A stretch of 64,000 nt of DNA. Source: Chytridium lagenaria. Taxonomy: Eukaryota; Chytridiomycota; Chytridiomycetes; Chytridiales; Chytridiaceae. The notes below the pieces were generated by a model. It was given only the letters and a program-made list of their open reading frames with translations. It made no database searches and was not told the origin of the DNA. The number at the start of each line of letters is the position of its first letter. The first letter of the stretch is position 1. The stretch is taken from positions 18,945 to 82,944 of the forward strand of contig JAHLKC010000162.1 of the NCBI GenBank assembly GCA_025449115.1. Direction: 5' to 3'. Positions 49,403-59,908 of this stretch are shown piece by piece. The position numbers were made by a program, and so were the translations under genes.

Positions 49403-52400
49403 ATGAAGCTTCTCATCGGATCCGCCGTTGTTGCGGTCCTCTCCATCTCATCATCCACCGTCGCCGCGCCTACAAAACACATCACCATCAAAGGAAATGC
49501 TGGCTCTTATTCAGACTGCAGCAAACTTAGGGAGACAGCTTACAAGGGATGTGTCGACACCTTTCCTCAGAATGGTCCTTTGACCAGCGGTGCTTGTATT
49601 GACCAATCCGTTCGGTGAGGACCATTAACCATCTTCTTCTACATCTCTTTCAATTTGATTCGCGATGGGTCAAGCTTTGGAGTTGCATTCCGCTTGTGAT
49701 TTTTAGAAATGCATCCATTTACTCATATCCAGTTACTCACACGCATTCACATTCTTTTGTTGCGTTTGCTAGTCAAGCTGACAGCTGCGTTCGCGCAATC
49801 GATAACGGAGAGAAACCTTACCCATTCAACTTCAAGTACCCCAGTGCCGCTTCCGAGGAGACGGAGGACAAACCCCCTACTACTGGTGGTGAGCCACCAA
49901 AGGAGGGAGAGAATACCACCCCTCCCACAGCAGCAGGTCCTGGCACTGAAAAGCCTTTGATCGTTACCTTTTCTGATGTTGCGAAGTCATACTCGGACTG
50001 TACAAAGTTTTTAGCCAAGGGTAACGAGCTCTGCCAAGCTTACCCCGAGTGGGTTGAGGACGCGACTAAGCCTATGAGGTTCAAGTGCATCAACGTCAAC
50101 GTTGCGTGAGTAGTCATTCTCATCCTTTTTGCCTATTGACTGACTTTGTGCTTCTAGTGTCGGAGACAAATGTTTCGCTACCCCCTTTGAGCAAGGTGGT
50201 AAAACCAATAACTGGGACTTTGTCTACCCTAAACCGAAAGCTGCCGCCGTAAGGATCGCTGACGAGAGCCGTGCCGAAGAAGCTCCCAAACCCCTCGTCG
50301 TCACTTTCTCCGATGTTGCTAAATCTTACGCTGACTGCACAAAGTTCTTGGCCAAGGGTAACGAGCTCTGCAAGGGCTACCCCGAGTTCTTGGAGGATGC
50401 ATCCAAGCCCATGAGATTCAAGTGTATTAACGTTAATGTTGCGTAAGTGCTTCATTTTATATTATTTATTATTTATAATTTATTATACCTTTTTTGCTAT
50501 ATTGACCAATTCCTTCTTTATAGCGTCGGTGACAAGTGTTTTGCGACTCCTTTTGAGCAGGGTGGCAAAACCTTTGACTGGAAATTCGTCTACCCCAAGC
50601 AGAAGGACGTTGCACCTCCCGTTGAGCCCCCAGTTGACCCTCCCACTGGTGACAAGACTGGCGACAAGACTGGTGACAAGACGGGTGACCAGACCGGCGA
50701 CAAGACTGGCGACGCCAAGATCGTCACTTTCTCCGATGTTGCCAAGTCCTACGCTGATTGCACAAAGTTCTTGGCCAAGGGTAACGAGCTCTGCCAAGCT
50801 TACCCCGAGTATGTGGAGGACGCGTCAAAGCCGATGAGGTTCAAGTGCATCAACGTAAATGTTGCGTAAGTGAAATAATATTTTTCGACCGTCTTTTACG
50901 TTGACATTAACCTTTTTTCTTTACAGCGTCGGTGACAAGTGTTTTGCTACTCCTTTCGAGCAAGGTGGTAAAACGTATAACTGGAACTTTGTCTACCCTA
51001 AGCAGAAGGCTGCCGCTGTTGCCGAGAATCGCGCTGAGGAAGCCCCCAAGCCCCTCATTGTCACCTTCTCTGATGTCGCCAAGTCTTATGCTGATTGCAC
51101 CAAATTCCTGGCAAAGGGCAATGAGCTCTGTAACGGGTACCCCGAGTATGTTGAGGATGCGTCAAAGCCTATGAGGTTCAAGTGTATTAACGTGAACGTT
51201 GCGTGAGTGTCACAGTCATTCTATTTGTTTTGTTCAATTTTTTTCCCTTATACTAACGCTATATTATTTTGTAGCGTCGGCGACAAATGTTTCGCGACTC
51301 CGTTCGAGCAGGGTGGCAAAACTTTTGACTGGAAGTTCGTCTACCCCAAGCAGAAGGACGTTGCACCTCCCGTTGAGCCCCCAGTTGACCCTCCCACTGG
51401 TGACAAGACTGGCGACAAGACTGGTGACAAGACGGGTGACAAGACCGGCGAGAAGACTGGTGACGCCAAGATCGTCACTTTCTCCGATGTTGCCAAGTCC
51501 TACGCTGATTGCACAAAGTTCTTGGCCAAGGGTAACGAGCTCTGCCAAGCTTACCCCGAGTTCGTGGAGGACGCGTCAAAGCCTATGAGATTCAAGTGCA
51601 TTAACGTGAATGTTGCGTAAGTGAAATTATATCTTTCCACCGCTTACACTTATCATTCCTCTTATACGTTGACATTAACCTTTTTTCTTTACAGCGTCGG
51701 TGACAAGTGTTTTGCTACCCTTTCGAGCAAGGTGGTAAAACCTATAACTGGAACTTTGTCTACCCTAAGCAGAAGGCTGCCGCTGTCAGGGTTGCCGAGA
51801 ACCGCGCCGAGGAAGCCCCTAAACCCCTCATTGTCACCTTCTCTGATGTCGCCAAGTCTTATGCTGATTGCACCAAATTCCTGGCAAAGGGCAATGAGCT
51901 CTGTAACGGTTACCCCGAGTATGTTGAGGATGCGTCAAAGCCTATGAGGTTCAAGTGTATTAACGTGAACGTTGCGTGAGTGTCTCAGCCATTCTATTGT
52001 TTTGTTTCAATTTTTTCCCCCTATACTAACACAATATTATTTTGTAGCGTCGGTGACAAATGTTTCGCGACTCCTTTTGAGCAGGGTGGCAAAACCTTTG
52101 ACTGGAAGTTCGTCTACCCCAAGCAGAAGGATGCTGCACCTTCCGTTGACCCTCCCGTTGACCCTCCCACTGGTGACAAGACTGGCGACAAGACTGGTGA
52201 CAAGACGGGTGACCAGACGGGGCGATGCCAAGATCGTCACTTTCTCCGATGTTGCCAAATCCTACGCTGACTGCACAAAGTTCTTGGCTAAGGGTAACGA
52301 GCTCTGCCAAGCTTACCCGAGTGGGTTGAGGATGCGTCAAAGCCTATGAGGTTCAAGTGCATTAACGTGAACGTTGCGTGAGTAAAATACTTATTTTGCT

Positions 52401-53312
52401 TTTTTACGTTGACGTTAACCTTTTTTCTTTACAGCGTCGGTGACAAGTGTTTCGCTACTCCCTTTGAGCAAGGTGGTAAAACCTATAACTGGAACTTTGT
52501 CTACCCTAAGCAGAAAGCTGCCGCCGTCAGGGTCTCTGAAGATCGTGCCGAAGAAGCTCCAAAGCCCCTTGTTGTTACGTTCTCGAATGTCGCCAAGTCT
52601 TACGCGGACTGTGGCAAGTTTTTGGCTAAGGGAAATGAGCTTGCCAAGGGTACCCCGAGTATGTGGAGATGCGTCCAAAGCCGATGAGGTTCAAGTGTAT
52701 TAACGTGAACGTTGCGTGAGTGTCACAGTCATTCTATTTGTTTTGTTCAATTTTTTTCCCTTATACTAACGCTATATTATTTTTGTAGCGTCGGCGACAA
52801 ATGTTTCGCGACTCCGTTTCGAGCAGGGTGGCAAAACTTTTGACTGGAAGTTCGTCTACCCCAAGCAGAAGGACGCTGCACCTCCCGTTGAGCCCCCAGT
52901 TGACCCTCCCACGGTGACAAGACTGGCGACAAGACTGGTGACAAGACGGGTGACCAGACCGGCGACAAGACCGGCGACGCCCAAGATCGTCACTTTCTCC
53001 GACGTTGCCAATCTTACGCTGACTGCACAAAGTTCTTGGCCAAGGGTAACGAGCTCTGCCAAGCTTACCCCGAGTGGGTTGAGGATTCGACGAAAGCCTA
53101 TGAGGTTCAAGTGTATTAATGTGAACGTTGCGTGAGTTTTCCCCTCCCCTTGCTCTTTCCTGTGTCGATAGCTTTCTTGGTTTGACCCATTTTCTTTTTG
53201 CAGTGTCGGTGACAATTGCTTCGCTACTCCCTTTGAGCAAGGTGGAAAGACGTACGACTGGAAGTTTTTTACCCCAAGCCTAAGCAGGCCTCTGCCATTT
53301 CTGGGGACGTAG
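49403..53312 (+). CDS. Secreted protein of tandem four-cysteine modules, 11 exons, unknown family
   Basis: Signal peptide MKLLIGSAVVAVLSISSSTV, then 'SYSDCSKLRETAYKGC'. Exons: 49403-49614, 49773-50105, 50158-50442, 50524-50865, 50927-51202, 51275-51616, 51695-51975, 52048-52377, 52435-52715, 52789-53131, 53204-53312. Each middle exon encodes 'VGDKCFATPFEQGGK', 'W(K/N)FVYPK', a linker, '[20 protein letters not shown]', 'NELCQAYPE' and 'KPMRFKCINVNVA', so Cys pairs straddle the exon joints. Two linker types alternate: A ('AAAVRVAENRAEEAPKP') and B (Pro-rich then GDKTGDKTGD), in four A-B pairs. All introns are phase 2. Exons 1-6 are clean; 7-11 carry indels, and the as-read last exon stops early at 53312. 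No known family recognised; wall, adhesion or effector roles are possible but unsupported. Confidence 0.8.
50158..53131 (+). repeat. Higher-order tandem repeat: four A-B exon pairs (~730-770 bp)
   Basis: Pairs A1/B1 (50158-50865), A2/B2 (50927-51616), A3/B3 (51695-52377) and A4/B4 (52435-53131). Introns repeat along with exons: after A2 and A4 'cacagtcattctatttgttt', before A2, A3 and A4 'ttaaccttttttctttacag'. The intron identity shows duplication of the whole pair, not of single exons. Confidence 0.85.
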
Positions 53313-53855
53313 GCGATGGGACTGAGAGCAATCCAATTGTTTGTTCTCGCTGTTTATGTTATGTATTAAACCGATGTTTGTGGTTATCCAGCATTTCTCT
53401 TTCTTATTTCTTGCATTTTTTTATATATCTGAATTGAGCAGTTTCGTTTTGCTGAAATAAAATACTTTGAATTTGATACCTTTCTCGAGATAGTGTTTTA
53501 AAGCTTTTGTTTGAACTGTACCGTTCTATTTACTTTGAACTGCAAAAGCCTACCGTTCTATTTACCTTGAACTGCAAAAGTGCTTAAGTTTGCGTCAATT
53601 TCTGGAATAATGATCCTTTTATGCTATAGAAAGTTCCGATAATTGACGTATAACCAGTTTTCTGCCACCAAATCCATTTTAATCTTAATGGCTCTAACGT
53701 TAACGTTTGTGGTGTAGGTCATCTGCATTGAGGCTAACAATGTGGCTTTACATGGGGCAGAAAGGTTGTAATATTTATTTAACACGAAACAGTTGAAAAT
53801 GAATACATGAATACACCAACCCACATCTTGACATTTTTTGCATGCAAATTCCACC
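53313..53855. other. Intergenic region with a 33-bp direct repeat
   Basis: 'ccgttctatttactttgaac' followed by 'tgcaaaagccta' repeats directly at about 53521-53580. Otherwise AT-rich with no gene. Confidence 0.4.
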
Positions 53856-55520
53856 ATGCGCCTGTTCCTCGCCGTCATCACAACCCTCTTCTCTATCGCA
53901 TCCACCGCTCCCACAAATCATGTCACAGTCACAGCACCCGCTACCTCCTACACCGATTGCAGCAAGTTGAGGGAAAACAGCTTACAATCAATGTGTGGAG
54001 AAGTTCCCCCTGAACACTGAGTGTTTGGAGTGGGGAGGTCGGTGAGTTGAGTGATTTGAATGTGGAAGTCGCGTACTAACGGGCGTTTATTTAGACAGGC
54101 GGATGTGTGCGTACTAGCTATTGATGACGGGAAGAAGGCATATGTATTCGACTTTAAGTACCCTACAACCCCTTCGAAAGGCCCTACTGAGAATTCGGAC
54201 GAGAAACAGAAAGGCGCTGTTACCAGCATGTTGAACCGCACTGGCGACGATAAGCCTTTGATTGTTACTGTTTCCAGCATGGCAAGGTCTTACTCGGATT
54301 GTGGAAGGTTTTTGGAAAAAGGGAATGACGTTTGTATGGGGTATCCAAAGTATTTGGAGGATGAGACAACGCCTTCGAGCGAGAAGTGTATTAAAGTCAA
54401 CGTTGCGTGAGTGTTTTTAGACATTCGAACGTTGGCTGATGTGGTTTTGTAATAGAGTCGCGGACGAGTTTTTCGCGACGCCTTTCGAGAAAGGCAATAC
54501 ATACGACTGGAAGTTCGTCTACCCTAAGCAGGAGAGTCGTGCTCTCGCGTTCAAGGCGGGATGCAGATTTTTATAAAAATGTTGGACGGGGCAAGACCAT
54601 CACTCTTGATGTGACATCTTCCGACACCGTTGGGAGGTAAAGGCCAAGTCCAGAATAAGGAGAACATCCCTTCTGACCAACAGCGTCTATATACGCCGGT
54701 AAAAACTTGAGGAGGGAGACTCTCTTGGAGTATAATGTTCAGAGGGAGGCGACGCTTCACCTTGTTCTTTCGACTTCGTGGGATGCAGATTTTCGTGAAG
54801 ACGTTGGCCGGGAAGACGGTCAGTCTGCAGGTTCAATCTGCTGATACTATTGATAACGTCAAAACCAAAATTCAAGATCTGGAGGGCATCACGACTGATC
54901 AACAACGGCTCATGTTTTCTGGAAAGGAGCTTGAGGATGGTCGGACTCTTTCAGATTACGGTATTGAGACGGGGTCAACGCTTGACCTTTTTCTCCGTGT
55001 CCGTAGTATGCAGATTTTCATAAAGGTGTTGGCCGGTAAGACGATCACTCTGAACGTTCAGGGCGTCCGATACCGTTGGAACCGTTAAGGCAAAGATTCA
55101 AGAGGTGGAGGGGATTTTGTCTAGTCAACAACGGCTCATGTTTGCTGGGAAGTTACTTGAGGATAGTCGGTCTCTTTCGGATTACGGTATTGAGGAAAAG
55201 TCAACCATTGACCTTGTTTCCGTCTCCACCGATGTCGTCACTTTTGCTGACGTCGCTAAATCGTATGCGGATTGCACAAGATTCTTGGCAAAGGGTAATG
55301 ACCTGTGTCAGGTCTATCCGCAGTGGCTGGAGGATATGTCAAAGCCAGTGAGGTTCAAGTGTTTTAATGCCAATGTTGCGTAAGTATGGTTTTTTTAACC
55401 GTCTTTTCCTCACTCCTTTTTATTAAATCTTCATTTTACAGTGTCGGTGATAGGTGTTTCGCAACTCCTTTCGAAACTGGGAGAACTTACAATTGGAAGT
55501 TTGTCTATCCAAAGCCTTAG
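53856..55520 (+). CDS. Secreted cysteine-module protein with three embedded ubiquitin-like domains
   Basis: Paralogue of the 49.4-kb gene. Signal peptide [18 protein letters not shown], then '[11 protein letters not shown]'. Exons: 53856-54041, 54095-54406, 54456-55379, 55442-55520. Exon 2 has '[19 protein letters not shown]' and '[16 protein letters not shown]'. Exon 3 opens a module ('[20 protein letters not shown]'), then carries three ubiquitin-like domains (54561-55228), then closes with '[15 protein letters not shown]', '[14 protein letters not shown]' and 'KCFNANVA'. Exon 4 is '[20 protein letters not shown]' to the stop. Exon 3 length is divisible by three (924 nt) but contains several internal indels, mostly in the first domain. 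Exon 1 has one extra base near 53975. The ubiquitin array occupies exactly the linker position of the paralogue. Function unknown. Confidence 0.78.
54561..54782 (+). other. Ubiquitin-like domain 1 (indel-damaged)
   Basis: Begins [10 protein letters not shown]; later pieces 'SSDTVG', 'PSDQQRL', '[17 protein letters not shown]' and '[12 protein letters not shown]' align with ubiquitin order, but at least three single-base shifts separate them (54590-54610, near 54693, near 54770). It joins straight to the next Met with one Gly instead of two. Confidence 0.7.
54783..55007 (+). other. Ubiquitin-like domain 2 (intact, 75 aa)
   Basis: An uninterrupted domain: '[20 protein letters not shown]', '[20 protein letters not shown]', '[19 protein letters not shown]', then 'LFLRVRS' directly followed by the next MQIF. 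By ubiquitin numbering Lys6, 11, 27, 29 and 48 are kept, Lys33 and Lys63 are lost, the Leu8/Ile44/Val70 patch becomes Leu/Met/Phe, and the terminal Gly-Gly is replaced by a single Ser. Confidence 0.9.
55008..55228 (+). other. Ubiquitin-like domain 3
   Basis: Begins '[18 protein letters not shown]'; one extra G near 55062 shifts frame; continues '[17 protein letters not shown]', '[18 protein letters not shown]', '[15 protein letters not shown]'. It has no LRLRGG end and merges into '[16 protein letters not shown]' of the next cysteine module. Confidence 0.85.
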
Positions 55521-57508
55521 TAGGCTTTGACCTCTGGTGAGCGTACGTGTTACGCGTTTTTTCTGTCAATTGAAGCATCGATGCGAACGAGACTACGTTT
55601 GGCATCGAGCTGTACATATATATCCTACTTGAACATTACTGTGCTAATGTATCTAAATGAATATGTTTTGAGTTTATTTTTGCGATTGGAGTTTGCGTTT
55701 TTGAAAGATCGTGGCCTGCCTAGACGCGTCTTACTGGAATTGCAGTTTTGGATGAGGGGACAGTAGATATGCATGCATTTGTTGAAAACGTATAATCTTC
55801 GAAAATATAAATATTCCTACACTAAATTTCAGTGCCATCAATATAATCTAGTTCAAACAGCTGCAAGAATTTACTCTGTTGCCTACAATTTGAGTGTATA
55901 GTGTGTTTCCGTTCAGAGTTAAGCCGTTTTTTTATTGAAACTGCATACATTTGTTACGGCCTAGTTTGTTTGTAATTTATTTTAAATCACTGCAGATTAC
56001 CTCCACATCTACAAATTGAAGGCTCATCATCACTACCAGCTAGGACCTGTAATGAAGTCTGCGATACCCCCTTATCCGAGTCATCCAAGCGTTTATCTCC
56101 ATCCCTTTATAAGTGAGCTTGGTCGTGCTCTGGAAGCCCCGCGCCAAGTTTATTTGTGTATCGCTAATGATGATTATGAGCCAAAACCTTTAGGCTTGGA
56201 CGGTAAGCGCTATGCAATAGCACGGATGTTGGTGATGCAGTTTATGTGGAGCTGAATTTGAGTGCCGAAGCTCTGGAGACTTTTGCATGACCTGTAAGTG
56301 TTGGCTTTCAGTTGATGGCTTGGGCACCGCTGTCGATGTATCATGCTAGAATGGGACAGCACCAATAAAGTTTAAGGATATTTGGAAGAGCTGTCGCTGC
56401 GGTGGAGGTGACAGCATCCACATCCATACAGATCATCACCATGGCCGTGTGTGCGGAAACAGATAACTATGGACAAAATGCTTTCGCATCTCAGCATATC
56501 TCCCTTCATTTTGTATTTTATACATTCGCAACGACGAGCTTTAAAACTTGTGGACCGTGCTGCTAACGCCATCCAAAAGTATCTGGGTCCCACTTATTCG
56601 TGAGTGCAAGACCAGCCTCTGCAATATAATGTACAATGTAACTCGCCACTGTTCGACTTCCACTGCACTGAAGCATATAAATCTCACCTTATGGGATCAA
56701 CTCAAGCGCAGTACGTAAGCTGCAAGACTGTAAACACGTTTGGCTCATGCTCGCTGCGTTACGATGTGCTGCCAAAGATCCTTTCGAGAGAACCCGGCAC
56801 AGAGGAATGGTTTGTGAAAAATGTTCGAAGTACTGGGGATGGGGGTTTGGCGCGGTGCGCGCGAGAGGGCTACATTGAATGATAATTTCGTGGGGATTAA
56901 GACACATAGCGTAAACGTGAGGACAGGTGAGGCCAGGTGCCTCCTTTTAGCAATGACGTCGTTGTTAATATTTGGCACCCCTTTGTCCCAACGTCTTCCT
57001 CTCCCTCCTATGATGTCATCACAAATATCGGGGGATCCCGCATCGGCTCAGCGAGGTCCGTTGCCAGCTCAAAGTGAGCAATGTGGAGCACCCACTCAGG
57101 CCTTCCCCTCGTCCCCACTTAGTCTGGAAGAACGGAAAAAGCTTGTTTTTAGTCAGCTTAAACGTCTGACAAGTCGCTTAAACTCCTGACAATTCGCGCG
57201 TAAACTCCGACAACAGAAGGAAGCACGGAAAAACAGAAGCGCAACGGGTGGGGAAGCCTTTCACGTTCCTCACGTTCCCGTCCTTCGTGGGCGGCATAGT
57301 CGACGTCATTGCTTAGAATGGCGTGTTGAGAGACTCTGAAAGCCTTTAAAAATAGACTCCGATTTGGATGTTCCCTCCATCAACAACCTCATCCCCGTTC
57401 ATTTTCTCCCCAAGTTGCGACTTGAAGATCCTACCTCATTCATATCAGCGCCTACTCTATACATTAGAAACTACTTCATCTTCCAGAACTACAAGAATCT
57501 GAAACCTC
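55521..57508. other. Intergenic region with unrecognised short open frames
   Basis: 2 kb. Frames at 56016-56255, 56604-56882 and 56821-57189 (+) are open but share no recognisable domain and no clear splicing partners. The segment near 56180-56290 could be a decayed coding relic. The 57340-57508 part is the probable desaturase promoter/leader. Confidence 0.35.
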
Positions 57509-59268
57509 ATGTCAGCAACAACAACAGCAACCACGACCATTGAGTCGACAAAACCTGCAGCAACTGGCTGGGGACCCACACCCATCACTTTGAAGGTAAG
57601 CGAACTTGAATCGTTGGAATTCTGTTAAGTTTCAAGCATGTCATCTAATTTACGCATCATTGACAGAACATTCGATGGCTGCACGTTTTCCTCCCTTTTC
57701 GGCACCCCTATTATTGCAGTATACGGGCTGTTTACCGTTCCCATTCAATTCAAAACTTTTCTCTTTTCCATCTTCTACTACTACCTCACCGCTTTCGGGA
57801 TCACAGGAGGCAAGTATACATTTCACGTCCTTCCAGTCGCGTCACTTGACGATTATAAATAACTCTTCTGACAATAGGCTACCACCGTTATTGGTCGCAT
57901 CGCTCTTACGACGCGTCCCCGCCCTTTTCAGTATTTCCTGATGTTGATCGCCTCCGGAGCTGTCGAAGGATCTATTCGCTGGTGGTGCAGAGACCATCGT
58001 GCGCATCATCGCTTTACCGACACTCCTAAGGATCCCTTACGGTGCTCAGAACGGACTTTTCTGGAGTCACATTGGATGGATGTTGGTTAAACAGGACAAA
58101 AACGTCATTGGACGGGTTGATATTTCGGACCTTAATAGAGATAAGATGATTACGTGGCAAGCACCAGAACTATCTTTTGTAAGTGTTTTGTTTTTGTTTT
58201 TATCCGAGCTTAAACTTCAGGTTATTCGTCATACTGACTATTGCTTTATAAGCATCTCTTCGTTCATGGCCTTTGGTCCTTCCTTCTCTAGTTGCTGGTC
58301 TTGGATGGGGTGATTACGCTGGAGGTTACTTCTACCGCCGGTGTCCTTCGTCTTGTGTTGGGTATGTTTTCTTCGTCTTCCTCAAAGTGAAATATCTTGT
58401 TACTCACTCTTCGCTCAACAGTCCACCATGCCACGTTCTGTGTTAACTCTATTGCTCACTAACCTTGGCGGAACGTCCTTTGACGACAAGCACTCTCCTC
58501 GCGACCACTTCATCACCGCCCTCCTCACACTCGGTGAGGGCTACCACAACTTGTAAGAGACGAGCTTTTACTTTTTCTCTTGTTGTGAAACACTTGTCCT
58601 TACCGTTTCTTTTATTCTAGTCACCACCAATTTCCTTCCGACTACCGCAACGCCATTCAGTGGTGGCAGTATGACCCTACCAAGTGGTCAATTTGGGTTG
58701 CTTCTCTCTTCGGCCTCACCAACGACTTGAAACAATTCCCCGAAAACGAGATAGTCAAGGGCCGCGTAATGATGCAACAGAAAAAGATTGACGAGATCAA
58801 GAAGAGACTTGACTGGGGTGTTCCCATTGAAACTTTAAAGGTTGTCACGTTTGAAGATGGTGAGCATTTATTCTTTATTTCCCTTCTTAAACTACTGTCA
58901 ATGTACTGTTTTTGACTTTTCCATCTTAATTATCAGTAACCCGTGAAATCGAGCAAACCCGACGACCTCTCATTATCATCGGGGATATGGTCTATGATGT
59001 TACAAAATTCATGAACGATCACCCTGGAGGTAGCGGGTTCTTGAAGAGCGGTGTTGGTAGAGACATGACAAAAGCTTTTAACGGTAAGCGCGTCGCTTTT
59101 CTTTTTTCCATCGACTCAACACTTTCTTTCTCTGATCATTCTGATCATTTTTCTTCTCTAGGTGGTATCTACGACCACTCGAACGCTGCGCGTAATCTAA
59201 TGTCGTCCATGAGATGGGCAAAGTTTGAAGGCGCGGTCCCCGAGTCCTTCAAATCAAAGGAGGAGTAA
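57509..59268 (+). CDS. OLE1: Acyl-CoA delta-9 desaturase with C-terminal cytochrome b5 (Ole1 type)
   Basis: ER membrane enzyme making palmitoleic and oleic acid. Starts MSATTTATTTIESTKPAATG. Histidine boxes are 'HRYWSHRSY' (variant of HRLWSH), 'HRAHHRFTDTPKDPYGAQNG' and '[20 protein letters not shown]'. Between them are 'GLFWSHIGWMLVKQDK' and 'GGTSFDDKHSPRDHFITALL'. The C-terminal cytochrome b5 domain has 'IIIGDMVYDVTKFMNDHPGG' and a second haem-His region 'GGIYDHSNAARNLM', ending 'SFKSKEE'. Introns lie near 57596-57666, 57811-57876, 58179-58251, 58361-58421, 58554-58620, 58858-58936 and 59082-59160. Single-base breaks occur near 57690, 58010 and 58290. Tandem desaturase-b5 architecture is the normal fungal form. 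Confidence 0.93.
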
Positions 59269-59908
59269 TATTCCTCACTCTCACTTTATTTCGACACACC
59301 TCATCCTTCTAGCTGCCACCATTACCTCTCTTGAATCATTTTTTTGTTATCGCGTTCCTCATACTTCATCGTTTTCTCTAGGCAAATATTCAATAAAGCT
59401 TATGACTGTAGTCTTCAATTAAAAGTAATCGCATTTATACAATTTTTCAAATTCATATGTTTATTGAATATGTAGTTAAATAACAATTAAGTACATGTGG
59501 GTTAGTTGAAAATCCTCATAAAGGCACCTTCTAACCTATTCGCGTCAAACTAACACCATTGGACCAGTCTCTCATCACCAAAAATACTATCGCATCAGAT
59601 GAAAACGATAACATCCAGTCCCAATTCAACTGTCATTGGGAGCAAACCTCGCTGGACTGTTTATGCCAAAAGGGTTATGAGCGAAATGTGTCCAATAAAA
59701 TATGAGGTTTAATTATTAATACTACATGACGAAGTTTGAATTATGTTGACCATAAGGTATTCTTTGAAAGAGGAGCTTGCCGAGCAATATATAATGAAAC
59801 GAAACTGTGTTGCATTTTCGCATCCAGGCATGATGAGAGGCAGGATCCCAGTGAGCTCAGTACAAATGAAAGCTCGCGTATAAAGAACTGAGTTAATATC
59901 ATGACCGC
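59269..59908. other. Convergent intergenic region
   Basis: 3' ends of the desaturase (+) and the small membrane protein (-). AT-rich; no gene seen. Confidence 0.4.

Follow-up and report, generated by a model that had tools for sequence, protein, structure and literature searches.

In Chytridium lagenaria, a gene built of repeated cysteine modules carries three head-to-tail ubiquitin-like domains (UBL1, UBL2 and UBL3, 54561-55233) between two of these modules. The gene lies on the forward strand of the 64,000-nucleotide stretch of contig JAHLKC010000162.1 analysed here (the window, to which all positions refer) and its parts follow each other in the order signal-peptide-like start, module 0, module 1, three UBLs and module 2 (Table 1). 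The joining of a ubiquitin array to a Cys-module gene is real. We think it probable, though with ample room for doubt, that polyubiquitin units were captured long ago, were duplicated in place and serve as folded, non-cleavable linker domains. The frame of the gene is broken as assembled and the draft genome is error-prone; the gene may still be intact and making protein.

The four-exon structure proposed in an earlier note was recovered, with GT-AG introns at all three sites. Its three head-to-tail units within one exon were also found again: they lie in exon 3, and the spacing from UBL2 to UBL3 is exactly 225 nt, or 75 codons. No open frame runs through exon 3, which is broken before UBL1, inside UBL1 and in UBL3.

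Table 1. Position of the target gene, its parts and the neighbour paralogue in the window
Feature	Position	Strand	Description
Neighbour paralogue	49403..53344	+	ten Cys modules, no UBL; 10 frame breaks in spliced alignment
Target gene	53856-55520	+	four exons; GT-AG introns 54042-54094, 54407-54455 and 55380-55441
Exon 1	53856..54041	+	signal-peptide-like start (by eye) and 5′ half of module 0; frame broken once, near 53970
Exon 2	54095..54406	+	3′ half of module 0, linker and 5′ half of module 1; frame unbroken
Module 1	54261..54531	+	spans intron 54407-54455; Phe instead of fourth Cys
Exon 3	54456..55379	+	3′ end of module 1, the three UBLs and 5′ half of module 2
UBL1	54561..54782	+	4-7 frame breaks, depending on penalty; ends RLRG, then Met of UBL2
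UBL2	54783..55007	+	75 codons without break; ends RVRS, then Met of UBL3
UBL3	55008..55233	+	one frame break at ~55062-55065; ends SVSTD
Stop-free frame, most of UBL3 and first half of module 2	55054..55383	+	from the ORF list
Module 2	55234..55514	+	spans intron 55380-55441; 4/4 cysteines; no frame break
Exon 4	55442..55520	+	includes stop codon

The Pfam ubiquitin profile (PF00240) was run on the ORFs of UBL2 and UBL3. Both ORFs belong to the ubiquitin family, with scores over the curated cut-off of 25.4: the ORF of UBL2 reached 92.1 bits (E = 1.8e-26) and that of UBL3, which covers most of this unit, 65.9 bits (E = 2.9e-18). Taken with the DNA match to polyubiquitin given below, these values argue that the array exceeds chance. 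Compared with ubiquitin, 22 of 75 residues differ in UBL2 and 28 of the 74 compared in UBL3; six changes are common to both (T9A, E18Q, I44M, N60G, Q62E and H68D) and K63 is changed in each. Gly-Gly is absent at every junction (RLRG/M, RVRS/M and, at the end of UBL3, SVSTD). The array is therefore not a polyubiquitin precursor, made of 76-residue units ending in Gly-Gly, nor is it a conjugatable ubiquitin with a C-terminal Gly-Gly that can be freed, the array being internal to the gene. Pfam matched no intein-like (BIL) domain in the six scanned ORFs of the target and neighbour genes, and the target is not a polyubiquitin-BIL fusion. At the 3′ side, UBL3 and module 2 are joined in a single stop-free frame, so the fusion there needs no choice or repair of frame. 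The 5′ join, from module 1 to UBL1, depends on one frame break at that place being an error.

The host gene is of the same family as its upstream neighbour. Both have a repeated module with conserved cysteines, a Y before the first Cys, an F-x-YP-like end and an intron in most modules, and in target modules 1 and 2 the intron (NVA/VAD and NVA/VGD) falls at the same place as in the neighbour. Similarly, the start of target exon 1 resembles that of the neighbour's annotated protein P0121, MKLLIGSAVVAVLSISSSTVAAPTKH. This protein (BC829DRAFT_76720 of C. lagenaria, 248 aa) covers the start of the neighbour gene only. By spliced alignment this gene comprises 1046 aligned codons in eleven exons; its 3′ end lies some 500 bases upstream of the target, and its linkers alternate between a Pro/GDKT and an AAAV...EEAPKP type. 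In an alignment of ten modules (two from the target, four from the neighbour and four from a gene at C6, leaving out target module 0, six neighbour modules and a locus at C111), the module measured 71-76 residues, with three cysteines invariant and the fourth present in 9 of 10. The start of the target looks by eye like a signal peptide, as in the earlier note; of the four-cysteine modules described there, module 1 is an exception, with Phe for its fourth Cys. Secretion of the protein is putative, as suggested by this start, by one N-glycosylation sequon (NRT) in the exon 2 linker and by kinship with the neighbour.

Other module loci in the genome were found at C6 and C111, the C111 match being weak (E 9e-4); frames of this further Cys-module locus (L048) appear broken. 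Outside C. lagenaria, the family was found just in Dinochytrium kinnereticum (HDU67_006675, P0122), among 2 protein-database matches. P0122 and the C6 gene, like the target, have tandem Cys modules of the same family; unlike in the target, no ubiquitin match was found in P0122 or reported at the C6 and C111 module loci, where counts are lower bounds. No Pfam family scored over its cut-off in the four scanned ORFs without UBL, in P0121 or in P0122, and PDB chains gave no match to the module up to E = 10. The Dinochytrium homologue was modelled from two sequences; the model is weak (mean pLDDT 46.8), and in it the modules have a strand-helix-helix-strand look. We rejected a viral origin of the module: one peptide pattern gave 18 viral-contig matches and 0 relatives. 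An annotated protein with the module-UBL fusion was not found; with module 2 as query, 4 candidate proteins were scored and 0 retained, and the search with the UBLs covered the best 120 of 5291 matches, with long polyubiquitins ranked first, so that it could miss a fusion orthologue. Elsewhere in the window (~57500-59300), what we take to be a desaturase-like gene is seemingly broken across several frames.

As for the origin of the array, it matches the polyubiquitin gene on C66 at the DNA level (E = 3e-73, ~71% identity over two long matches). A small DNA tree of 12 units was built, and a protein tree beside it. In the DNA tree the three UBLs fell, with modest support, among polyubiquitin units and not with the two single-unit (ribosomal-fusion) ubiquitins; the protein tree did not resolve their origin because ubiquitin copies are identical. 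UBL2 and UBL3 joined at 0.993 in the DNA tree and 0.949 in the protein tree. UBL1 joined this pair at only 0.694 in the DNA tree and there may therefore have been one capture or two. By NG86, dS between UBL2 and UBL3 is 0.47 versus 2.1-2.4 to polyubiquitin, which points to duplication after capture. Third-position G+C is 0.48-0.49 in UBL2 and UBL3, the level of the host gene, whereas two polyubiquitin units that are intact have 0.63 and 0.75. The DNA tree and the C66 match support entry of polyubiquitin material into the linker of a secreted-type repeat protein, as the earlier note had it. Its term 'intronless copy' need not mean retrocopying, because internal units of the C66 polyubiquitin are already without introns. 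The array had further been placed exactly at the Pro/GDKT linker of the paralogue: it does occupy a linker between modules, and the module types around it (CQVYPQW type after), judged by eye, weakly suggest the Pro/GDKT kind rather than the other linker type of the neighbour.

We examined how the units have changed. In UBL2 and UBL3 alike, 14 of 14 positions which we take to form the ubiquitin core remain hydrophobic (P = 0.010 by neutral simulation). Core retention and absence of stops, taken jointly for both units, gave P = 0.0018, absence of stops alone being unremarkable (P = 0.19). Four stretches of UBL1 picked by eye (54 residues, each stretch in one frame) were hydrophobic at 11 of 11 core positions. 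Divergence from ubiquitin at codon positions 1 and 2 was 0.14-0.17 for UBL2, 0.23-0.27 for UBL3 and 0.11-0.12 for UBL1, this last value being understated because the frame-tolerant alignment picks the best-matching frame. Divergence between UBL2 and UBL3 is near neutral, with dN 0.29 and dS 0.47 by NG86 and dN 0.33 and dS 0.36 by YN00; silent and replacement codons (11 and 28) did not depart from neutrality (P = 0.27) and second-position changes were slightly below random (P = 0.049). Compared with five neighbour modules, module 2 changed mainly at third positions (8/8/39, for example). One reading of UBL2 and UBL3 is constraint on the fold without the surface, another is relaxed constraint. 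Retention of the core, and the fact that of the three units UBL1 is closest to ubiquitin, make an old pseudogene unlikely.

Frame breaks were counted by protein-to-DNA alignment permitting breaks and introns, with penalties of 8, 11 and 14 applied equally to all genes (values are given in this order). UBL1, of 75 codons, showed 7, 6 and 4 breaks, UBL2 none at each penalty and UBL3 2, 1 and 1; one further break lies just before UBL1 and one in exon 1. In the ~525 codons of the C66 polyubiquitin the counts were 6, 6 and 5. At each penalty, the 368 codons of actin had 3 breaks and the 1046 of the neighbour gene 10, and the single ubiquitins had 1 in 75 codons (C9) and 0 in 76 (C46). Pooled genes gave 20, 20 and 19 breaks in about 2090 codons, that is ~1 per 100 codons, and 11 other ubiquitin-like domains, two of them identical copies, gave 3, 1 and 0 in 612-639 codons. 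Outside UBL1 the target matches the pooled rate (20 in 2097 codons in that comparison), with 3 breaks in ~427 codons versus 4.1 expected. For UBL1 the pooled genes predict ~0.7 breaks (P 1e-5, 1e-4 and 0.0053).

All ten breaks of the neighbour lie from 51718 on (51718-53344, ~456 codons, the final two-fifths of the gene) and none in the preceding 2.3 kb, which may reflect either poorer assembly in this region or true decay of the gene. With this bad stretch as reference, a comparison picked after the stretch had been seen, 1.6 breaks are expected in UBL1 (P 0.0016, 0.0069 and 0.085). Thus the error rate of the assembly accounts for the breaks of the target outside UBL1 and hardly for those of UBL1, which is therefore either genuinely damaged or part of an exceptionally error-rich stretch. 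In the same assembly, two copies of another gene (C28 and C41), ~90% identical, differ by one- and two-base gaps, some seemingly frame-shifting.

The main rival to our explanation is a recently dead gene, in which the fusion was once translated, frameshifts in UBL1 now stop the protein and everything 3′ of it (UBL2, UBL3 and module 2) survives as a relic. We judge this rather unlikely, even though UBL1 exceeds the pooled genes in breaks at every penalty tried, module 1 has lost a cysteine and change between UBL2 and UBL3 is near neutral. Outside UBL1 the target is no more broken than genes elsewhere in the assembly, among them polyubiquitin and actin, and the excess in UBL1 becomes marginal against the bad stretch of the neighbour at the penalty used for other genes (P = 0.085). 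Moreover, UBL1 is the unit nearest to ubiquitin at positions 1 and 2, though the alignment favours that, and module 2, located 3′ to the breaks, differs from the neighbour modules mainly at third positions.

In the capture model that we prefer, the host gene is one of a small chytrid family of secreted-type Cys-module proteins, and one or more internal units of the organism's own polyubiquitin gene would have been copied long ago into the linker between two Cys modules, and one unit of the array would later have been duplicated in place to give UBL2 and UBL3. Each unit would keep the ubiquitin fold and, without a C-terminal Gly-Gly, would stay fused; from established ubiquitin biology, only with Gly-Gly lost would the fusion be expected to withstand deubiquitinases. 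The array could then stand where the flexible Pro/GDKT linker would be and act as a linker or interaction domain that is folded, rigid and non-cleavable. We favour this role because residues of the signalling surface changed while the core did not, and because Gly-Gly was lost.

The earlier note had left a choice between such a spacer and an exported ubiquitin mimic, a secreted array whose targets would be the ubiquitin receptors or ligases that an algal host or a competitor possesses. There are precedents for a secreted ubiquitin that acts on another organism, namely BfUbb of Bacteroides fragilis (PMC5705921) and a nematode ubiquitin extension protein (PMC4802876). In the array, however, Gly-Gly is lost and K63 is changed in UBL2 and UBL3. 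Both units also carry I44M and H68D, at positions which we take to be part of the ubiquitin binding patch. These changes would favour a structural spacer, and mimicry appears improbable.

An assembly artefact, with a polyubiquitin fragment wrongly joined into the contig, is very improbable, even in an assembly which is error-prone and carries redundant sequence. At other places in the genome, the DNA most similar to the array is 71-79% identical to it, the array locus itself was found once and the join of UBL3 to module 2 is in one frame. Misassembly of the cytosolic polyubiquitin, raised beforehand as a possible objection, is contradicted by a DNA identity to C66 of ~71%. At another place, L078 (C142) and L079 (C24) are 100% identical across 2188 bases, and the assembly is therefore partly redundant there. 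Finally, splicing of UBL1 as a hidden intron, leaving an array of two units, is scarcely credible: 14 frame-keeping GT-AG pairs lie between module 1 and UBL2, but none has a donor like the gene's own gtgagt, gtgagt and gtaagt, the candidates all measure 170-236 nt versus 49-62 nt for its three introns, and UBL1 retains a coding signal.

Few proteins are as conserved as ubiquitin, which is normally a tag inside cells. Ciliate polyubiquitin-BIL genes have ubiquitin units fused to other domains, and BIL domains self-process; the target differs in having no matched intein-like domain. Proteins of the Hs-UBI1 type consist of a single ubiquitin beside a short C-terminal extension, and ISG15 ends in a conjugatable tail. 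Polyubiquitin of the UBI4/UBC type, the apparent source, resembles the array in its head-to-tail units without spacers and its intronless internal units; the array differs by its divergence, by the lack of Gly-Gly at the UBL1-UBL2 and UBL2-UBL3 junctions and by its place inside a signal-peptide-like Cys-module gene. The secreted ubiquitin extension proteins of cyst nematodes (Hs-UBI1) are a case of ubiquitin in a secreted eukaryotic fusion (PMC4802876), whereas the array has three units between two Cys modules and no cleavage site. BfUbb of Bacteroides fragilis is an exported ubiquitin-like protein with a signal sequence (PMC5705921); it is a single mature 76-residue bacterial protein, unfused and with no array, in contrast to the fused array of the target. 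ISG15, with two ubiquitin-like domains and also secreted (PMC8834048), has no Cys modules, unlike the target. Searches of the open-licence literature yielded secreted single ubiquitins; ubiquitins arrayed inside a secreted repeat protein were not among the results. Zoosporangia found on Oedogonium are described as resembling C. lagenaria (PMC10470594).

It is conceivable, if somewhat doubtful, that a polyubiquitin segment was taken into the secretory pathway as extracellular architecture, a non-cleavable ubiquitin-fold array replacing a flexible linker between disulfide-type modules. If true, this would clearly exemplify how a linker can capture a domain, and the adjacent paralogue would still show what kind of linker was ancestral. 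Drift away from signalling with the core kept would separate the constraints of the fold from those of signalling, and ubiquitin would have been exapted as a building block, not as a signal.
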